The notes under the pieces are model-generated. The model saw only the letters and a list, made by a program, of their open reading frames with translations, was not told the DNA's origin and ran no database searches. A stretch of DNA of 64,000 nt from Flavicella sediminum (GTDB lineage: Bacteria > Bacteroidota > Bacteroidia > Flavobacteriales > Flavobacteriaceae), in NCBI RefSeq assembly GCF_006381105.1, contig NZ_VDET01000007.1, positions 1 to 64,000 of the forward strand, read 5' to 3'. Positions 9,990 through 42,395 of the stretch are shown here, piece by piece. Every line of letters begins with the position of its first letter. The stretch's first letter is position 1. The position numbers and the translations under genes were made by a program.

Positions 9990-10097
9990 TGAGCCTGTCT
10001 AAGTCTCATTATTTTCAATAAAATAAAAATTCCGTACCCTTCGACAAACGAAGGGTACGGAATAAATATGTTTGTAGACTCACTCTGTTGAAGTCTA
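9990..10097. repeat. Three-hairpin extragenic repeat cluster
   Basis: Three palindromes lie in 108 bp. The first is TGAGCCT-gtcta-AGTCTCA (9990-10008, one mismatch). The second is a perfect 14-bp stem TTCCGTACCCTTCG with loop ACAAA (10030-10062). The third is TAGACTCA...TGAAGTCTA (10075-10097), which overlaps the queE stop codon. Similar outer sequences bracket the strong central hairpin. It looks like a REP/BIME-type or small MITE-like element, and the central hairpin may also terminate queE transcription. Copy number in the genome cannot be judged from this window. Confidence 0.55.
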
Positions 10098-29496: not shown

Positions 29497-30810
29497 TTGA
29501 AAAAATATATCTCCATTTTTTTTGTTTTTATAAGTTTTACTTGTTTCTGTCAAGGTAATTTTTCATTGCTCCATAATCGAAAAAAACAAAGCTTTAAATT
29601 CAAATCCATCAATAACTTAATAATCATTCCATTAAAAGTAAATGGTGTTCAAGGATCTTATATTTTAGACACCGGTTTGAGTACGAATATTCTGTTTAAA
29701 GCGAAAACTAAAATAGATAGTAGTTATGCCAATTTGAGGAAAGTTACTTTAAACGGTTTTGGAAACGGGCCAAATATGGAAGCCATTGTTACGGTAGACA
29801 ATACGTTTCAGTTGGAAAATTTGCAAGCCACAAAACAGCGCATGCTATTGGTGTTAGATGAGCATGTAAACCTTTCTGCTAAAATGGGCATGACCATTGA
29901 TGGCATGATTGGTTATGAGTTTTTTAAAAATTTTATTGTCAAAATTAATTACAGAAGTAAACAAATTACCGTTTACAATCCACAGTATTTTAAAAAGAAA
30001 ACCCGTAAATCGTATCATACTTTTCCCTTACAATTTCATAAATACAAACCTTATTTAAAAGGAAAAGTTTTGTTAGCAAATAATAAAGAAATAAAAACTC
30101 CCGTAAAGCTATTAATTGATACAGGTGGAAGTGATGCTTTGTGGCTTTTTGAGGATGCAGCACAAAACTTAATTCCTACTGAAACACATTTTAAAGATTT
30201 TTTAGGTGAGAGTATTTCAGGAAGTATTTTTGGTAATAAATGTAGAATTGAAGAATTTCAGATTGGGGATTTTATCTTTAAACAACCAATCGTTTCTTTT
30301 TTGGATAAAAAATCGACAGAATTAGCAAGAAGAATTAAAAATAGAAATGGTTCTGTTGGAGGTGGCTTGTTGAGAAGATTTGTAGTTTGGTTTGATTATG
30401 GAAACAAAGAAATTACTTTAAAAAAGAGTCGTGGGTTTAGGGATGCTTTTACTTATAATATGAGCGGTTTAGATATGAATTATAGTGGCGATATTTTGAT
30501 TGCTGAAACTAAAATCAGTAGTTTTTATGTACAAGACAAAGAGCAAAAATTAAAATTGACCAAAGATTTTAAATTTTCATTAAAACCCTCGTATATTGTT
30601 GGTCATGTTCGTGAAAATTCACCTGGTGCATTAGCGGGTGCACAAGTCGGAGATTTGGTTTTAAAAGTAAATCGGAAGGCAAGTTATAAAATGTCATTTG
30701 ATGAAATCAATACTTTATTCTATACCAAAAAAAATAAATGGGTGCGACTTTTGGTTGCGAGAGACGGAAAAGAAATAACGTTGAAATTTAAATTACAAAA
30801 TGAACTCTAA
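29497..30810 (+). CDS. Secreted aspartyl protease with C-terminal PDZ domain (paralog A)
   Basis: A 437-residue secreted protein. A signal peptide (about 1-19, ending CFCQG) is followed by two retropepsin/pepsin-like half-domains, each with a DTG catalytic motif: GSYILDTGLS (Asp58) and LLIDTGGSD (Asp208). A PDZ domain spans about 360-437 (GALAGAQVGDLVLKVN). Both aspartates are present, so a single-chain bilobal protease is plausible. The start codon is TTG (29497); no ATG is available in frame and the following MKKYISIF-type start looks authentic. A close paralog lies at 37391-38707, on the other side of the RND efflux operon. The substrate is unknown. Confidence 0.88.
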   Translation: MKKYISIFFVFISFTCFCQGNFSLLHNRKKQSFKFKSINNLIIIPLKVNGVQGSYILDTGLSTNILFKAKTKIDSSYANLRKVTLNGFGNGPNMEAIVTVDNTFQLENLQATKQRMLLVLDEHVNLSAKMGMTIDGMIGYEFFKNFIVKINYRSKQITVYNPQYFKKKTRKSYHTFPLQFHKYKPYLKGKVLLANNKEIKTPVKLLIDTGGSDALWLFEDAAQNLIPTETHFKDFLGESISGSIFGNKCRIEEFQIGDFIFKQPIVSFLDKKSTELARRIKNRNGSVGGGLLRRFVVWFDYGNKEITLKKSRGFRDAFTYNMSGLDMNYSGDILIAETKISSFYVQDKEQKLKLTKDFKFSLKPSYIVGHVRENSPGALAGAQVGDLVLKVNRKASYKMSFDEINTLFYTKKNKWVRLLVARDGKEITLKFKLQNEL

Positions 30811-30834: not shown

Positions 30835-30877
30835 GAAAAAGGTCATTTTATAGCAATTATAAAATGACCTTTTTTTA
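30835..30877. terminator. Bidirectional terminator
   Basis: AAAAAGGTCATTTTATA and TATAAAATGACCTTTTTTT form a long perfect stem with loop GCAAT, U-rich on both strands. It separates convergent protease A and the TolC-like gene. Confidence 0.85.
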
Positions 30878-30890
30878 GATTGTTTATGAC

Positions 30891-32309
30891 TTATTGCCAA
30901 CCACCACCAAGTGATTTGTACAAATCGACAACCGTTAGTAATTGTTGTAATTTGCTATTTACTAAATTTAGTTTCGCACTCAAAGCACTTTGCCTTGCCG
31001 TTAATAAATCTAAATAATTGGCATAGCCATTTTTAAGTAATTCTTCTGAATTTGTTTCAGCATTACGTAAAGCTTCAGCTTCTTTATTTCTAAATTGAAA
31101 CTTTGTCGTTTCTGCTTGGTAAGAAAACAAAGCATTAGAAACTTCACTACCTGCTACTAACAAGGTTTGTCTATAATTTAATAAAGCTTGTTCTTCTTGG
31201 TTTTTAGCGACTTCAACCTGTGTTTTTAATTTTCTTTGGTTAAAAATAGGCTGTGTTAATCCTCCAATAACATTGGCAAATATTGAATTGGCATTTAACC
31301 AATTATCTACTTCTAAACTTTGAAATCCTCCTGAAGCTGTTAAAGTCAAGGCAGGATATAAATTGGTTTTGGCCACATTTTTCAATTCAAAAGTTTCCAT
31401 CAAACTATATTGTGCCGCTTTTACATCGGGTCTGTTGCTTAACAACAACGCAGGAATACCAATTTGTAATTCGGTATCAATAACTTGCTGGTTTAAATTC
31501 CCTCTTTTAAATTTTTGAGGATTTTCTGCTAAAAGAATACTCAATCCGTTTTCTAATTTAAAAATAGCCGTTTCTAAATCTACTTTTAAAGCTTCAGCAT
31601 TATTGTACTGTGCGATATTTTGATCTACAGCTACTTGAGTTACTTGTCCGGCATCCATTAAAGCTTTAATAGTTTCAACTCCTTTTTTGCGCACGCTAAT
31701 GGTTTTGTTCGTTATTTTTAGCTGAGCATCTAAGGCCAATAATTGATAATAATTTTTTACAATTCTAGAAACTAATTCAGACCGAACGGCTTGTTGAGCT
31801 GCTGAACTCTTTAAAAAACTAGCATAGCTAGCTTTTTTACTACTTCTAATTTTTCCCCAAATATCTGCTTCCCAAGCTAAATTCCCAGCCAATTCATAAG
31901 TTTGAATAGATCGATCGCTAGACAAACCACCAAATCGACTGTTCTTAGAAACAACTGTATTTGTAAGACTTCCGCCAACACTAAAAGTAGGATAGTAACC
32001 TGCTTTTCCTTGTTTCATGTAGGATTCTGCTGAGTTCATTTGTTTGATGGCTATTTGTAAATCAAAATTATTAGCCAAACCTCGTGCAATGTATTCTTGT
32101 AAATAACGATCGGTAAACATTTCCTTCCAAGACACTGAGGCCATAGAAATAGAATCTGTTTTATGCATCGCATCATTTTCAAGCCTAAAGACTTCTTTTG
32201 ACGCTTCTTTTACAATAGGTTGTTTAAAATCTTTAACAGCCAAGCAAGAGGTTAGGAGTGTAGCAACTCCTAACATCAAGACTATTTTATAGGTATCTAT
32301 TTTTTTCAT
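30891..32309 (-). CDS. RND efflux outer-membrane channel (TolC/NodT family lipoprotein)
   Basis: Outer membrane factor of 472 residues. A lipoprotein signal (LGVATLLTSCLAVK) is followed by two TolC-type helical repeats, each a long periplasmic alpha-barrel hairpin plus beta strands (NFDLQIAIKQMNSAESYMKQGKAGYYP is the typical first helix start). It forms the exit duct of the tripartite pump encoded upstream. It is the last gene of the four-gene operon, 3 bp after the pump gene, and is followed by a strong terminator. Confidence 0.94.
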   Translation of the reverse strand: MKKIDTYKIVLMLGVATLLTSCLAVKDFKQPIVKEASKEVFRLENDAMHKTDSISMASVSWKEMFTDRYLQEYIARGLANNFDLQIAIKQMNSAESYMKQGKAGYYPTFSVGGSLTNTVVSKNSRFGGLSSDRSIQTYELAGNLAWEADIWGKIRSSKKASYASFLKSSAAQQAVRSELVSRIVKNYYQLLALDAQLKITNKTISVRKKGVETIKALMDAGQVTQVAVDQNIAQYNNAEALKVDLETAIFKLENGLSILLAENPQKFKRGNLNQQVIDTELQIGIPALLLSNRPDVKAAQYSLMETFELKNVAKTNLYPALTLTASGGFQSLEVDNWLNANSIFANVIGGLTQPIFNQRKLKTQVEVAKNQEEQALLNYRQTLLVAGSEVSNALFSYQAETTKFQFRNKEAEALRNAETNSEELLKNGYANYLDLLTARQSALSAKLNLVNSKLQQLLTVVDLYKSLGGGWQ

Positions 32310-32312
32310 GAT

Positions 32313-35300
32313 TTAATCAATTTCTTTGTTTAATTCTTGTGCTGATGACGACACTTTTTCTTGCAACCATTGGAACAAGATAAAGAGTATTGGAATTACA
32401 AAAACTCCTAAAACAGTACCAATCAACAACCCTCCAACAGCTCCTGTACCAATAGATTTGTTTCCTTCTGATCCAACTCCTTGCGACAATACCAATGGCA
32501 TCAATCCTAAAATAAAAGCAAATGAAGTCATTAAAATTGGCCGTAATCGAGATTTGGCTCCTAGAATGGCTGCATCTACAATACTTTCTCCATTTCGTCT
32601 ACGTTGCAAAGCAATCTCTACAATCAAAATGGCATTTTTAGCTAACAAACCAATCAACATAATTAAAGCAATTTGAAAATAAATATTGTTTTCTAAGCCT
32701 AAAAACTTAGTACTAATATAAGCTCCAAATACTCCAAAAGGTAAAGACAATACTACGGCAAATGGCAATAAATAACTTTCGTATTGTGCACATAATAAAA
32801 AGTACACAAACAAAATACTTAGTATAAAAATAAACGTAGTTTGGTTTCCAGCACTTACTTCTTCACGGGTCAATCCAGAATACGCAACGGTATAATTACT
32901 AGGTAATTTGGCAATTTCTTCTTCAATAACTCTAATGGCATCTCCTGTACTATATCCTTCGTTAGTTGCACCTGATATTTTCGTTGAGTTCAATAAATTG
33001 AAACGGGTTACGGACTGCGGTCCATACACTCTTTTTAAGTTTACAAATTCTGTAATAGGTGCCATTTCACCAGCGTTGGTTCTTACAAACATGCTATTCA
33101 AGGCATTTACATCGGCTCTGTCTTCTGGTAAAGCCTGAATGTACACTCTAAATTGTTTCCCAAATCTAGAAAAATCTGAAGCATAAACTCCACCAATATA
33201 ACCTTGTAAAGTAGAAAAGATGCTAGAAACAGCCACTCCTTTTTCTTTCGCCAAAGGCACATTTACTTCCATTTCGTACTGTGGATAATTGGTGTTAAAA
33301 GAAGACTGCGCATATTTAATTTCTGGATGACTCATTAAAGCAAATGCAAAATCTCGATTGGCTTTGTCTAAATCTGAAAATTCTCCTCCAAATTTGTCTA
33401 ATAAGTTCACTTCAAAACCAGATGAATTTCCAAATCCACGTATACTTGGTGGTGAAAAGAAAATAATCTTAGCTTCAGGAACACCTGCAGCAATTCCAAA
33501 TAATTTTCCAGTAATTGCTTGTGCAGAAAGTGAAGAATCTTCACGCTCACTCCAATCTTTTAATTTAATAATTCCCATTCCATAATTAGAACCCGAACCG
33601 TTAATTAAACTTCTACCTTTAATAAAGTTAACGGCTACAATTCCATCTATACCTTCAATTTTGTCATATAATTTTCTGGTAACAGCATCAGTTCTGTCTA
33701 AAGAAGCACCTGCTGGTAATTCTACATTGGCAAAAATAATCCCTCTATCTTCATTAGGTACAAAACCTGTTGGAGTAGTGGTAGCTGCCCAATAAATTCC
33801 AACTGCTGCAATCAGTAAAAGAATTACAGAAATGAATTTTTTCTTATATAAAAACTGAAGTGATTGTCCGTATTTATGAATGGTTGCATTAAACCCACGA
33901 TTAAATAAGGTGTAAAAACGTTGTAAAGGTCCTTTGCTTTTTAACTCTTCGTCTTCGTGATGTGTTTTTAATAACAAAGCACATAAGGCAGGACTTAAAG
34001 TCAATGCATTTACTGCTGAAATTAAAATAGCAATAATCAAGGTAACTCCAAATTGTTCGTAAAACACTCCTGTAGGTCCTGTAATAAACGTAACCGGAAT
34101 AAATACAGCTGCCATTACTAAGGTAATAGAGATAATAGCTCCAGAAATTTCATTCATCGCAACCAATGTTGCTTTTTTAGGATTCTTTTCACCCTCGTCC
34201 ATTTTTGCATGCACTGCTTCTACAACTACAATGGCATCATCTACCACAATACCAATGGCCAATACCAAGGCAAAAAGTGTTAATAGGTTAATAGAATATC
34301 CAAAAACATTTAAGAAAAAGAACGTACCAATAATAGATACAGGAACAGCAATAGCTGGAATTAAAGTAGATCTTAAATCTTGTAAAAAGATAAATACAAC
34401 TAAGAAAACCAATAAGAAGGCTTCTAATAAAGTATGAACTACTTTTTCTATAGAGGCATTTAAAAACAAACTGGTATCATAAGGAATAAAAATATCCAAT
34501 CCATCAGGAAGTTCATTTTCTATAGTTCCTAAAGTTGTCTTAATATGTTCTATAATTTCCTGAGCATTAGATCCTTTGGTTTGAAAAATCCCCATAAATA
34601 CAGCAGGATGCCCTTTACTCATGGCATTAGAAGCATAAGATTGTGCATCTAGCTCAATAGTAGCCACATCTTTTAAACGTAAAAACTGTCCGTTACCTAA
34701 AGCCTTAATAACAATATCACTGTATTGACTTTCTTTTTTAAAACGTCCGCTATAAGTTAAGGTGTAAGAAAAAGCTTCTCCACTGTTTTGACCTAAAGAT
34801 CCAGCTGCAGCTTCTAAATTTTGCTCTTTTAAGGCAGCAGTAACATCCGAAGGGATTAAGTTATAAGCAGCTAATTTTTCTGGTTTTAACCAAATACGCA
34901 TAGCATAATCTTGTTGAGAAAATACACTTACATCTCCCACACCACTAATACGTTGCATAGCAGGAATTACGTTAATTTTTAAGTAATTCTGAATAAAAGT
35001 AGCATCGTAATCTTCGCTTTCAGAATACATAGAAATAAACATCAAAGCACTTGTTTCTTGCTTTTGTGTAATAACCCCTGTTTGTGTTACTTCTTGTGGT
35101 AACAAAGGAGTAGCTCTTGCTACACGGTTTTGTACGTTTACGGCTGCAATATCTGCATCCATTTCTTGATCAAAATAAACGGTAATTTCTGCAGTTCCTG
35201 TATTGGATGCTGTAGAAGTAATATAGGTCATTCCTTCTACACCGTTAATTTGTTCCTCAATAGGAATAATAACGCTTTCTAATACAGTTTCGGCATTGGC

Positions 35301-35453
35301 ACCTGTATAATTTGCAGTTACCTTAATGGTAGGCGGTGCAATATCTGGATATTCTTCTATAGGTAAACTAGTAATGCTAATAGCCCCTAGCAAAACTATA
35401 ATAATAGAGATCACTGTTGAAAGAACGGGTCTTTCAATAAATGTTTTTAACAT
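32313..35453 (-). CDS. RND multidrug efflux pump, inner membrane subunit (AcrB/HAE1 family)
   Basis: Proton-driven RND transporter of 1046 residues, the full family length. Twelve transmembrane segments and two large periplasmic porter loops are visible. The N-terminus MLKTFIERPVLSTVIS is characteristic. TM4 carries LAIGIVVDDAIVVVEAVH with the Asp pair that relays protons. PVSIIGTFFFLNVFGYSINL and the second-half repeat FGVFGAYISTKFLGLENN show the internal duplication. HAE1 (hydrophobe/amphiphile export) is more likely than heavy-metal export. Confidence 0.96.
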   Translation of the reverse strand: MLKTFIERPVLSTVISIIIVLLGAISITSLPIEEYPDIAPPTIKVTANYTGANAETVLESVIIPIEEQINGVEGMTYITSTASNTGTAEITVYFDQEMDADIAAVNVQNRVARATPLLPQEVTQTGVITQKQETSALMFISMYSESEDYDATFIQNYLKINVIPAMQRISGVGDVSVFSQQDYAMRIWLKPEKLAAYNLIPSDVTAALKEQNLEAAAGSLGQNSGEAFSYTLTYSGRFKKESQYSDIVIKALGNGQFLRLKDVATIELDAQSYASNAMSKGHPAVFMGIFQTKGSNAQEIIEHIKTTLGTIENELPDGLDIFIPYDTSLFLNASIEKVVHTLLEAFLLVFLVVFIFLQDLRSTLIPAIAVPVSIIGTFFFLNVFGYSINLLTLFALVLAIGIVVDDAIVVVEAVHAKMDEGEKNPKKATLVAMNEISGAIISITLVMAAVFIPVTFITGPTGVFYEQFGVTLIIAILISAVNALTLSPALCALLLKTHHEDEELKSKGPLQRFYTLFNRGFNATIHKYGQSLQFLYKKKFISVILLLIAAVGIYWAATTTPTGFVPNEDRGIIFANVELPAGASLDRTDAVTRKLYDKIEGIDGIVAVNFIKGRSLINGSGSNYGMGIIKLKDWSEREDSSLSAQAITGKLFGIAAGVPEAKIIFFSPPSIRGFGNSSGFEVNLLDKFGGEFSDLDKANRDFAFALMSHPEIKYAQSSFNTNYPQYEMEVNVPLAKEKGVAVSSIFSTLQGYIGGVYASDFSRFGKQFRVYIQALPEDRADVNALNSMFVRTNAGEMAPITEFVNLKRVYGPQSVTRFNLLNSTKISGATNEGYSTGDAIRVIEEEIAKLPSNYTVAYSGLTREEVSAGNQTTFIFILSILFVYFLLCAQYESYLLPFAVVLSLPFGVFGAYISTKFLGLENNIYFQIALIMLIGLLAKNAILIVEIALQRRRNGESIVDAAILGAKSRLRPILMTSFAFILGLMPLVLSQGVGSEGNKSIGTGAVGGLLIGTVLGVFVIPILFILFQWLQEKVSSSAQELNKEID

Positions 35454-35476: not shown

Positions 35477-36607
35477 TTAATTTTTAAATAAGGTAGCAAT
35501 AGGTGCTATGGCTTTTTCAAAAGGAATGTCTTGTGGAGAAATGGTCGTTCCATTTCTTAATTTACTAATTCCTGTGATCACAATTTTATCTCCTACCTTA
35601 AGACCAGACTTAACCACATATAAATTGTTTACAGTTCCTTCTACTTTAATTAAAGTAGCTTTTACTTTATTGTCTGCACCTAAGGTGTAAATCATGATAT
35701 CTTTTTGTTGCTCAAAAGTAGCAGATTGAGGTACTACAATAGCATCTTTATATGCTATTGGAAATCTGATTTCCCCACTATTTCCATTGGTTAACAATTC
35801 ATTTGGATTGTCAAAAGCAGCTCTAATTTGTATGGTACCTGTACTTTGATTGATTTGCCCACTACTGGTTTGAATACGTCCTTTTTCTGAGTACACTTTA
35901 CCATTGGCTAAAATCAAACTTAGGTCGGGAGAGTTTTGAATGCGTTCCGCTTTTGTTTTTCCTTCGTAACGTTGTAAATGGTCTATGTATTGAGCTTCAT
36001 TAAAACTAAAGAAAGCATATACTTGACTAATTTCACTTACTTTGGTTAATGGAGTAGCATCACTTGGACTTACCAAAGATCCTTCTCTAAAATTAATAGA
36101 ACCTACATATCCATCAATAGGGCTTTTAATAGTAGCATAGCTAATCGTAGCAGACACACCGCTGTAGTTCGCTTTTGCTTGCTTTAAATTCGCTTTTGCA
36201 GTTTCTAATTGTACAGGACTGATGATCTTTTTTTCTACCAGAGGAATTAATTTATTTACTTCCACTTGTGCTACATTAACACGAGCCTTTGCGGCACTTG
36301 CATCCTGACTTAAAGACTGAGTTTCTAATTGAAATAATACCTGTCCTTTACGTACTTTTTGACCTTCATCTACAAAAACTTTTTCTATATAACCGGATGT
36401 TTTAGCTCTTACATCACTATTGATAATTCCTTCAATTGTTGTAGGATAATCTCTATATCCTGTTACGGTTTTTTGTTGAATGGCAGTAACGGGAATTGCT
36501 ACCGCTGGAGGTGTATTATTTTTTGTAGCAGCTTGGTTTTTATCGATACAGCTTACTAAGGAAAAAGATGCGAGTATTATGGCAACTGATTGATATATTT
36601 TATTCAT
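35477..36607 (-). CDS. RND efflux periplasmic adaptor subunit (AcrA-like lipoprotein)
   Basis: Membrane fusion protein of 376 residues. The lipoprotein signal ends LVSCIDKN. The first lipoyl half-domain with SGYIEKVFVDEGQKVRKGQ (residues about 72-90), an alpha-hairpin, the second lipoyl half with IKSPIDGYVGSINFREGSLV, a beta-barrel and a membrane-proximal domain follow. It bridges the pump and TolC. It starts 2 bp after the regulator's stop codon, so the regulator and transporter are one transcription unit. Confidence 0.95.
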   Translation of the reverse strand: MNKIYQSVAIILASFSLVSCIDKNQAATKNNTPPAVAIPVTAIQQKTVTGYRDYPTTIEGIINSDVRAKTSGYIEKVFVDEGQKVRKGQVLFQLETQSLSQDASAAKARVNVAQVEVNKLIPLVEKKIISPVQLETAKANLKQAKANYSGVSATISYATIKSPIDGYVGSINFREGSLVSPSDATPLTKVSEISQVYAFFSFNEAQYIDHLQRYEGKTKAERIQNSPDLSLILANGKVYSEKGRIQTSSGQINQSTGTIQIRAAFDNPNELLTNGNSGEIRFPIAYKDAIVVPQSATFEQQKDIMIYTLGADNKVKATLIKVEGTVNNLYVVKSGLKVGDKIVITGISKLRNGTTISPQDIPFEKAIAPIATLFKN

Positions 36608-36609
36608 TG

Positions 36610-37101
36610 TTATTTATTTTTATTAATTATTTTTTCTTTTAAGAGGGATACTGAGGCTATCGTTTTTTCTAAAAACTCTATATAATCGTCGTGAAAATCT
36701 AAATCAAAACGTTCTGCCTCTAAAGTTTCTGGTAGTTCATTAATATTGTGTTTGAATTCTTTAATTTCTGAGTGTAGTTCTTTATGCGTGCTCCAAAGAG
36801 AAACCATTTCATCAATACTATGAACAATAGTTCCTGGATCGAGGATAAAATATTTTTTCCGGTCTCCAGTTTTTGTAAAGTATGAAACCTTATTAGCACC
36901 CTGTAAATTTGTTAGATGGGTAGAAATGGTACTTTTACTAGCACACAATTTTTCTACCAATTCTTCAAAGGTGGTTCCTTTTTTTCCGTTCAATATGATA
37001 TAGCTTAAAATTCGTGCCGCTACTGGAGCAATTTTGTCTTTTTGCTCAAAGTGAACGCCTAATTTTTCAACAAGCTGACATCTTTTTTTGTCTTGTACCA
37101 T
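36610..37101 (-). CDS. GbsR/MarR-type transcriptional regulator of the efflux operon
   Basis: Winged-helix regulator of 163 residues. The DNA-binding domain lies in about 20-90 (ARILSYIILNGKKGTTFEELVEKLCASKSTISTHL, in which the SKSTISTHL stretch is the recognition helix). A C-terminal helical dimerisation segment follows. As first gene of the RND operon it is the obvious local repressor. A 24-bp palindrome (37136-37159) directly upstream of a TACATTTG promoter element supports autoregulation. Confidence 0.88.
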   Translation of the reverse strand: MVQDKKRCQLVEKLGVHFEQKDKIAPVAARILSYIILNGKKGTTFEELVEKLCASKSTISTHLTNLQGANKVSYFTKTGDRKKYFILDPGTIVHSIDEMVSLWSTHKELHSEIKEFKHNINELPETLEAERFDLDFHDDYIEFLEKTIASVSLLKEKIINKNK

Positions 37102-37124: not shown

Positions 37125-37159
37125 CAAATGTATGTTTAGTTCGGTTTATTCCGAACTAA
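37125..37159 (-). promoter_or_regulatory. Efflux operon promoter with operator palindrome
   Basis: The minus-strand -7 element TACATTTG occupies 37125-37132. Immediately upstream is a perfect inverted repeat TTAGTTCGG-tttatt-CCGAACTAA (37136-37159), which fills the region between the -7 element and a TTCG-like -33 box (37152-37155). A dimeric winged-helix repressor bound here would block RNA polymerase. The regulator ATG is at 37101. Confidence 0.7.
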
Positions 37160-37390
37160 CAGTATGTTAAAATTTTCCCTAAATAATTAACTCATAAAAA
37201 CAGATTTAGAATTGAAGAAGAATCTTGTCGTATGTAGACCAAAACTTTAAGTTAAAAAAGTAGACTAGAAAAAGGGAAATACAAAGTTCTAATCTTTTAA
37301 AATTGAAGGCTTTGAATCCTTGTTGATTTTTTGTAACTTACTGAAAGTGCTTACTTTGTGGTTTTCTTTCCACAAAAAAAATAAATACTC

Positions 37391-38707
37391 ATGAAACAAA
37401 TGTTGCTATTTATTGTAGTCTTAATATCTGCATCTATGAATTCTCAAGGCATATTTGCATTAAAAGACGATGCCAAAAAACAAGTAATTCACTTTAAAAA
37501 CATTCACAATTTAATTATTATTCCATTGCGTTTAAATGGAGTGGAAGGCTCTTATATACTAGATACCGGCGTACATAAAAATTTGATATTTAAAACCAAA
37601 GAAGATCCTATTTTTCAAGATACACTTCGGAAAAAAATATACTTAAATGGTTTCGGTGTTGGAGAAACCATTGAAGCTGTGGTAGTCAATAATAATATTT
37701 TTGAATACAAAAAAATTAGAGGTATACGGCAACAGAATTATGTGTTATCAGACGAACGTCTTGATTTTTCAGCCAAATTCGGAACAACGATTAATGGTAT
37801 TATTGGGACTGAGTTTTTCAGAGATTTTGTGGTAAAAATTAATTATTCTTCCAAAACAATAACCGTTTACAATCCGAAATATTACAAGCAAAAAAAAGGC
37901 AAACGTTACCAAACCTTGCCATTACAATTCAAAAAAAATAAACCTTATGTAGATGCACGTGTTAGCATTGAAGGGCCTGCGGTAAAAGGAATTCCTATTA
38001 ATTTATTGATAGATACAGGAGGTAGTGATGCTGTTTGGTTGTACGATGATAAAAATTATGGATTAGAGGCCCCAGATAAAAATTTCAGAGATTTTTTAGG
38101 GGAAAGTATTTCTGGCTATGTATATGGTAAAAAAGGCCGTGTAGAACAGTTTAGCTTGGGTAATTTTAAATTTGAAAAACCTGTGGTTTCATTTTTAGAT
38201 TCAGCCTCTACCGTTATAGCAAGAAAAATAAAAGGGAGAAATGGAAGTTTAGGAGGTGAAGTATTGAGCCGGTTTGTTATTTGGTTTGATTATAGAAAAG
38301 CTCAAATTACTCTAAAGAAAAATCATAAATTTAAAAAACGATTTAGCTATAATATGAGTGGATTGGACATTAACTACAATGGTTCTATTTTAGTTTCTGA
38401 AGTGGTGCCTACCGATGTTGAATTTGGTGTTCAAAGAAACCATGTTTCCTTAGTAGAAGATACGTATCAATTTGTGACAAAGCCTTCTTTTATAATTGCC
38501 AATATTCGGGAAGGATCTATTGGTGAAACTGCGGGCTTGTTAAGAGGTGATGTTTTGGTCTCTATAAATAACAATCCTTGTTACGATATGACCCATGAAC
38601 GAATTTATTCTATTTTTCACAACTATAAAGATCGAAATATAAAATTGGAGGTTTACCGTCAAGGTGAAAACCACACCTTTAAATTTAAATTGAAAGATGA
38701 GCTGTAA
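37391..38707 (+). CDS. Secreted aspartyl protease with C-terminal PDZ domain (paralog B)
   Basis: A 438-residue paralog of the protein at 29497-30810 with the same architecture: signal peptide ending NSQG, DTG motif 1 in GSYILDTGVH (Asp58), DTG motif 2 in LLIDTGGSD, a FLGESISG loop, a NMSGLDINY stretch and a PDZ domain at the C-terminus (GETAGLLRGDVLVSINN). It is nearly co-linear with paralog A without large gaps. It has an ordinary ATG start. A small inverted repeat TTTGTGG/CCACAAA (37355-37376) precedes the gene. It is likely a periplasmic or surface protease or peptide-binding protein; substrate unknown. Confidence 0.88.
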   Translation: MKQMLLFIVVLISASMNSQGIFALKDDAKKQVIHFKNIHNLIIIPLRLNGVEGSYILDTGVHKNLIFKTKEDPIFQDTLRKKIYLNGFGVGETIEAVVVNNNIFEYKKIRGIRQQNYVLSDERLDFSAKFGTTINGIIGTEFFRDFVVKINYSSKTITVYNPKYYKQKKGKRYQTLPLQFKKNKPYVDARVSIEGPAVKGIPINLLIDTGGSDAVWLYDDKNYGLEAPDKNFRDFLGESISGYVYGKKGRVEQFSLGNFKFEKPVVSFLDSASTVIARKIKGRNGSLGGEVLSRFVIWFDYRKAQITLKKNHKFKKRFSYNMSGLDINYNGSILVSEVVPTDVEFGVQRNHVSLVEDTYQFVTKPSFIIANIREGSIGETAGLLRGDVLVSINNNPCYDMTHERIYSIFHNYKDRNIKLEVYRQGENHTFKFKLKDEL

Positions 38708-42363: not shown

Positions 42364-42395
42364 AAATCCCCTTGACATTAAAGTCAAGGGGATTT
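42364..42395. terminator. Bidirectional terminator
   Basis: AAATCCCCTTGAC/GTCAAGGGGATTT is a perfect 13-bp stem with a 6-nt loop, between the convergent EF-hand and HAD phosphatase genes. The A-run on its left serves as U-tract for the minus strand. Confidence 0.8.

Follow-up and report, generated by a model that had tools for sequence, protein, structure and literature searches.

MexR and MepR are local MarR-type repressors, encoded beside pump genes and with their operator in the pump promoter. The GbsR family (GbsR, OpcR, OpuAR and CydE) likewise consists of MarR-type repressors, according to the available part of PMC6207618. In that text, (i) GbsR was modelled on template 1ku9 (Mj223), (ii) the osmostress members have an aromatic-cage inducer site, with choline or betaine as the inducer, and (iii) a survey of the family found Bacteroidetes members without a consistent gene neighbourhood. 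RaeR-RaeCAB of Riemerella anatipestifer comprises RND efflux genes and an adjacent regulator gene (PMC5727081, available part). A further paper, PMC10812688, concerns a PadR regulator and, in its available part, has no bearing on the operator considered here.

The locus of interest lies in a window of 64,000 nucleotides from Flavicella sediminum (contig NZ_VDET01000007.1, positions 1 to 64,000). Its features are as follows:

30891–32309, minus strand: outer membrane efflux protein (OEP; TIGR01845)
32313–35453, minus strand: RND efflux permease (PF00873, TIGR00915)
35477–36607, minus strand: RND periplasmic adaptor (MFP; TIGR01730)
36610–37101, minus strand: GbsR/MarR-fold winged-helix regulator of 163 aa, first gene of the operon (from fold and family models)
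37120, minus strand: predicted transcription start (from the -12 to -5 rule)
37125–37132, minus strand: -7 box TACATTTG (TAnnTTTG; consensus and place at -12 to -5 from the available part of PMC9723704)
37136–37159, no strand: candidate operator palindrome, two 9-bp arms and a 6-nt spacer, at -39 to -16 from the predicted start; conserved upstream of 71 of 73 regulators
37152–37155, minus strand: TTCG at the -33 position, within the upstream arm and 19 nt before the TA of the -7 box; at the equivalent place in relatives; presumed promoter function
37160–37183, minus strand: place of the relatives' TTTAACA-N5-TTTAACTTCG element, present in the window only in a degenerate form

The regulator, MFP, RND and OEP genes lie on one strand with gaps of 2, 23 and 3 nt, and the pump proteins belong to clear families. 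A sequence-only reading of the window had claimed a regulator that is the first gene of an RND pump operon, and this arrangement stands: the regulator and pump genes probably form a single transcription unit. The locus differs from the MexR and MepR systems in that the regulator is the first gene of an operon that is probably under its own control. It resembles RaeR-RaeCAB in combining RND efflux genes with a neighbouring regulator gene in the same phylum, and differs from it in that RaeR is assigned to the TetR family and the genes run R-C-A-B (PMC5727081, available part). The described GbsR-family members control osmoprotectant or cyd genes (PMC6207618, available part), in contrast to the RND efflux operon found here. 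On either side, the operon is flanked by paralogous genes for aspartyl-protease-like PDZ proteins (29497–30810 and 37391–38707; 46.6% identical over 440 columns), relatives of which were not found in the 72 other fetched loci (up to ~10 kb each).

The regulator was modelled with AlphaFold from seven input sequences (the window and six loci from named genomes), giving a pLDDT of 88.3 and a pTM of 0.68. A Foldseek search with this model ranked 4nb5, 5jbr and 1ku9 first (1ku9 with an E-value of 7e-6), and VIA-align superpositions on these three structures gave Z-scores of 14.1, 13.5 and 13.0 over 146–149 residues. The rmsd of these superpositions is high (7–9 Å), which suggests a different angle between domains in the modelled regulator. 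As modelled, the protein would share with the GbsR family a winged-helix DNA-binding head and a helical C-terminal domain, in the fold of Mj223 (1ku9). Over the winged helix, MexR and MepR were matched as well, less strongly than 4nb5, 5jbr and 1ku9, and their operator is different. Profile matches were obtained to 4nb5 (E 1.1e-5) and 1ku9 (E 0.041). Of the Pfam models, HTH_5 passes (23.4 against a cut-off of 22) and MarR falls below (19.9 against 24.6); of the NCBIfam models, MsvR and CudC, the choline regulator, fall below (CudC 20.6 against 218), and none of the curated models scanned represents the GbsR family as a whole. The GbsR/MarR-type assignment made from the sequence alone is thus supported by the fold, and less so by the curated sequence models.

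The region ahead of the regulator gene contains, as claimed, a perfect 9-bp inverted repeat with a TTTATT loop: TTAGTTCGG (37136–37144)-TTTATT-CCGAACTAA (37151–37159), with 6 nt between the arms. In the direction of the regulator gene, the minus strand reads TTAGTTCGG-AATAAA-CCGAACTAA-aca-TACATTTG. We propose that this palindrome is very probably the operator bound by the regulator whose gene follows directly downstream, and that a GbsR/MarR-fold dimer bound to it would sterically repress its own operon. A perfect 9-bp palindrome is by itself not rare in the window: palindromes of this kind with a loop of 3–10 nt give 28 matches, many of them nested, against a mean of 8.4 in 40 Markov resamplings, and those with at least 4 G/C per arm give eight matches at four places, against a mean of 0.35. 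The weight for the operator reading therefore rests on conservation and position. Among the other perfect hairpins, those at 30842–30868 and 42366–42393 lie between convergent gene ends and are probably two-way terminators; another, G+C-containing and of 9 bp or longer, is at 10033–10059. Allowing up to three mismatches, the operator palindrome occurs once in the window (0.01 copies expected) and has one other match, with three mismatches, in the 4.58-Mb genome, where the backwards-pattern control has four; this genome search provided no convincing further targets.

Flavobacterial sigma-A promoters carry TAnnTTTG at -12 to -5 (PMC9723704, available part). Applied to the -7 box, this rule puts the start at about 37120, the palindrome at -39 to -16 and TTCG at -35 to -32. 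It had been suggested that the palindrome fills the space between the -33 and -7 elements. This is not the case: the upstream arm itself holds the tetramer at the -33 position, and no separate -33 element is seen upstream of the palindrome in the window sequence. A sigma-70 scan called no site at this promoter, as expected for a phylum whose promoter consensus differs from that of the scanning model.

Conservation was assessed in a family set of 199 genomes from 198 genera. A first search detected the regulator in 66 of these genomes, at 67 places; a profile search of the same set likewise gave 66 genomes at E 1.0e-45 or better, followed by a gap to paralogues at 2.4e-28 and weaker. With six further loci from named genomes, including Wenyingzhuangia heitensis and W. 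aestuarii, we obtained 73 loci (66 places outside the window, the six loci from named genomes and the window; any overlap between these collections was retained). MFP, RND and OEP follow the regulator in this order in 69 of the 73. In L097, the best MFP and RND matches belong to a pump on the other side, and on the expected side there is a further RND gene. An OEP match is missing in L102, and in L101 and L103 no pump follows the regulator.

Each locus was given an operator score, the number of matched arm positions out of 18 in the best match with spacers of 4–8 nt allowed. The spacer of the best match is 6 nt in all 73 loci. The scores are 18 in 18 loci, 17 in 17, 16 in 14, 15 in 15, 14 in six, 13 in one and 12 in two; that is, 71 of 73 loci carry a site with at least 13 matches and 64 a site with at least 15. 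Among 2190 control segments, searched with spacer 6 only (30 random 250-bp segments for each of the 73 loci), 23 reached 13 or 14, the maximum was 14 and none reached 15. The distance from the site to TAnnTTTG is also narrowly distributed: 3 nt in 50 loci, 4 nt in 14, and 2, 5 or 6 nt in four, with no exact box in five. The operator claim had been made to hang on conservation of the palindrome upstream of orthologous regulators, and with a site in 71 of 73 loci it stands; these counts argue for a conserved operator that overlaps the core promoter of the operon. What had been called an autorepressed layout with a clean candidate site holds for the site, which is conserved, tracks with the regulator gene and fronts the operon in 69 of 73 loci; autorepression itself is something that we infer. 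At the one outer pair of arm positions tested (positions 2 and 21), there is no arm-to-arm compensation (p = 0.80), and a symmetric change in both arms was found in L090 alone.

The two loci scoring 12 are L101 and L103, the pump-less regulator copies. The L101 regulator is followed by an MscS-type channel, and that of L103 lies near a BCCT (betaine-type) transporter. By analogy, such neighbours, without an operator, recall the osmostress role of GbsR.

For the tetramer at the -33 place, 65 of the 71 sites were paired with an exact -7 box: 57 have TTCG, four TTTG, two TTTT and two TTCA, and the 57 TTCG tetramers lie 18, 19 or 20 nt from the box. The -33 consensus is TTG/TTTG. The sites with TTTG belong to divergent relatives (L087, L089, L094 and L095), in which the symmetry of the arms has been lost and a better -33 element gained; judging by these letters, promoter and operator seem to be traded off against each other. 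The upstream arm is degraded in L087, L088, L089, L094, L095 and L097, indicating that operator symmetry is not strictly needed.

A regulator bound at this place might also activate, for example by reshaping the promoter spacer when its ligand is bound. The site covers the -33 position and the spacer, over which MerR-type activators also act, and most relatives (57/65) have the weak tetramer TTCG, for which an activator could compensate. We nonetheless consider activation improbable: the fold is MarR/GbsR-like, not MerR-like; the drift to TTTG (4/65) betters the promoter at the cost of the arm; and the GbsR-type proteins treated in the available part of PMC6207618 are repressors.

Repression by the product of the first gene, our preferred reading, would proceed as follows: (i) the GbsR/MarR-fold protein would form a homodimer, in which each winged helix would read one GTTCGG half-site through the recognition helix ASKS-T/S-IST, (ii) the dimer would cover -39 to -16 and deny sigma-A RNA polymerase access to the spacer and the -33 position, (iii) a single promoter would serve the regulator, MFP, RND and OEP genes, and (iv) a ligand, perhaps a substrate of the pump, would release the dimer. 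With ligand-released repression of a shared promoter, pump synthesis would, we propose, limit itself. Among relatives, the recognition helix is nearly constant (ASKSTIST or ASKSSIST), in line with the nearly constant candidate operator.

If the palindrome belongs to this regulator, the two may be expected in the same genomes. Of the 66 genomes that carry the regulator, 43 contain the exact core GTTCGG-N6-CCGAAC, compared with 12 of the 133 that lack it (Fisher 2.5e-16); the backwards control pattern is present in 14 of 199. In 41 of 67 loci the exact core is found no more than 250 nt ahead of the regulator; 25 of the 66 regulator genomes have no exact 12-base core at that place, most of these having near matches, and G011 and G027 carry an exact copy elsewhere in the genome. 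All regulator genomes except G010 (65 of 66) have an RND permease of at least 60% identity, and so does one of the 133 others (G119). As read from these genomes, regulator, pump and putative operator travel together.

This co-occurrence bears on a further explanation, by which the site is the property of another regulator or of the divergent gene at 37391, and is here by chance. That binding by the present regulator is itself inferred speaks for such an owner, as does the start of the divergent gene only ~230 bp away. Set against the tracking of the site with this regulator between genomes, and a divergent gene with no relative in the 72 other loci (up to ~10 kb each), the chance of this being so is very slim.

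Extra copies of the core were also considered as operators. One copy, in L141, falls within an ORF, three (L136, L137 and L140) are located between gene ends, and that in L139 is followed by a T run; all five were rejected. The remaining extra copies, read by eye in ~88 bp of context, were likewise rejected, none having TAnnTTTG 3–5 nt after the core on the strand shown (this reading left out G042, G182, G011 and the second copies in G077 and G134). Some of the core copies elsewhere thus look like terminators, with T runs or positions at gene ends (L111/L140, L136, L139), and perfect 9-bp palindromes are common in the window, so that the palindrome could be imagined as a hairpin acting in RNA, as a terminator or leader structure. 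For the site before the regulator, the probability of this is next to nil: no terminator-like site is called here, transcription from this promoter should begin downstream of the palindrome, which precedes the -7 box, and it is the specific letters of the arms that are conserved, not their pairing alone.

An additional element, resembling TTTAACA-N5-TTTAACTTCG, is found upstream of the operator in most relatives. Among 71 sites, 56 have TTAA at the nearer place and 59 have TTAAC at the farther place. Across the 73 loci (756 kb), the pattern TTAAC-N5/6-TTAACTTC has 32 occurrences, each at this promoter; having been derived from these promoters, the pattern is informative only for its absence elsewhere in the loci, which, rather than whole genomes, were what the scan covered. 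In addition, 30 of the 71 sites have a CTTCG 9 bp ahead of the GTTCG in the arm. The upstream element may act either as an additional contact site or as a polymerase element.

When the search was extended to the phylum, relatives of the regulator were detected in 62 of 395 genomes, at 68 places, of which the best 30 were read; 26 of these were not already counted. Among these 26 distant loci, 18 have sites with a 6-nt spacer and at least 15 matches, and 24 at least 13, scores of 13–14 being within the tail of the control distribution. TAnnTTTG follows at 3–6 nt in 17 loci and at 10–12 nt in four (L157, L159, L161 and L168), with no exact box in five. The longer gaps and the box-less loci led us to reject a fixed gap of 3–4 nt across the phylum. 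The letters of the arms also vary: TTTGTTCGT...CCGAACTAA, CTGAACTAA or CAGAACTAA in six of the seven loci from one family of the order, TAGGTTCGT in the seventh, TTGGTTCTT or TTAGTTCTT with CAGAACTAA or CAGAACCAA in L159, L161 and L162, and TTGGTTCAA...TTGAACCAA in L171. In eight of the 26 (L149–L156), GTTCG itself is at the place of the upstream CTTCG. L167 has no operator-like site. Most of the distant relatives read thus appear to have similar sites, with drifted letters and, in some, a shifted distance to the -7 box.

The next gene was identified in 13 of the distant loci. In five of them it codes for an outer membrane efflux protein, assigned with Pfam in L157, L158, L159 and L168 and by inspection in L162; in four (L146, L149, L160 and L169) it codes for an MFP, assigned with Pfam or by inspection. 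L171 and L172 have a gene for a LolA-like protein at this place and L161 one for a patatin, and the product in L167 looks unrelated.

Taken jointly, these observations permit a broader reading, which we offer tentatively and judge somewhat more doubtful than likely. Regulator and operator would be an ancient pair over much of Bacteroidota, with a 9+6+9 layout and a GTTC-N10-GAAC core, mostly kept with export or envelope operons. In the branch to which the Flavicella operon belongs, one arm would double as the -33 position, so that promoter strength would have to be balanced against repressor affinity. In another branch, where an outer membrane efflux gene comes next, the site would stand about one helical turn (10–12 nt) before the -7 box, rather than 3–4 nt. 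Finally, the TTTAACA-N5-TTTAACTTCG of most relatives would serve as a second contact site, in helical phase, at which another dimer or a co-regulator binds.

The control logic proposed is, as far as the sequence can tell, ordinary and textbook; the candidate operator is unusually clear and widely conserved. Among the literature matches listed, titles and the beginnings of abstracts do not describe it; most subscription papers lie outside such a search, so absence from print is not implied. The operator appears to be new, as does the linking of this Bacteroidota regulator group with efflux operons. If the proteins belong to the GbsR group, as the fold supports, these loci supply the consistent neighbourhood that the survey, in the available part of PMC6207618, lacked. 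Should the proposal hold, it would (i) connect the Bacteroidota GbsR-type proteins with an operon and a defined operator and point to their likely function, (ii) make available a natural promoter, compact and repressible, for genetic work in Bacteroidota, and (iii) provide a testable case of an operator arm that doubles as a promoter element.

A final observation concerns the pump genes. The RND permease (32313–35453) is 98.6% identical over 1046 aa to that of W. aestuarii (L034), against 74% for the regulator, 87% for the MFP and 78% over 221 aa for the OEP. At the DNA level, in steps of 250 bp, identity to the same locus is 90–100% in the RND gene, ~70% in the regulator and 75–83% in the OEP gene. 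The contrast between the RND gene and its neighbours suggests recombination of the pump gene.
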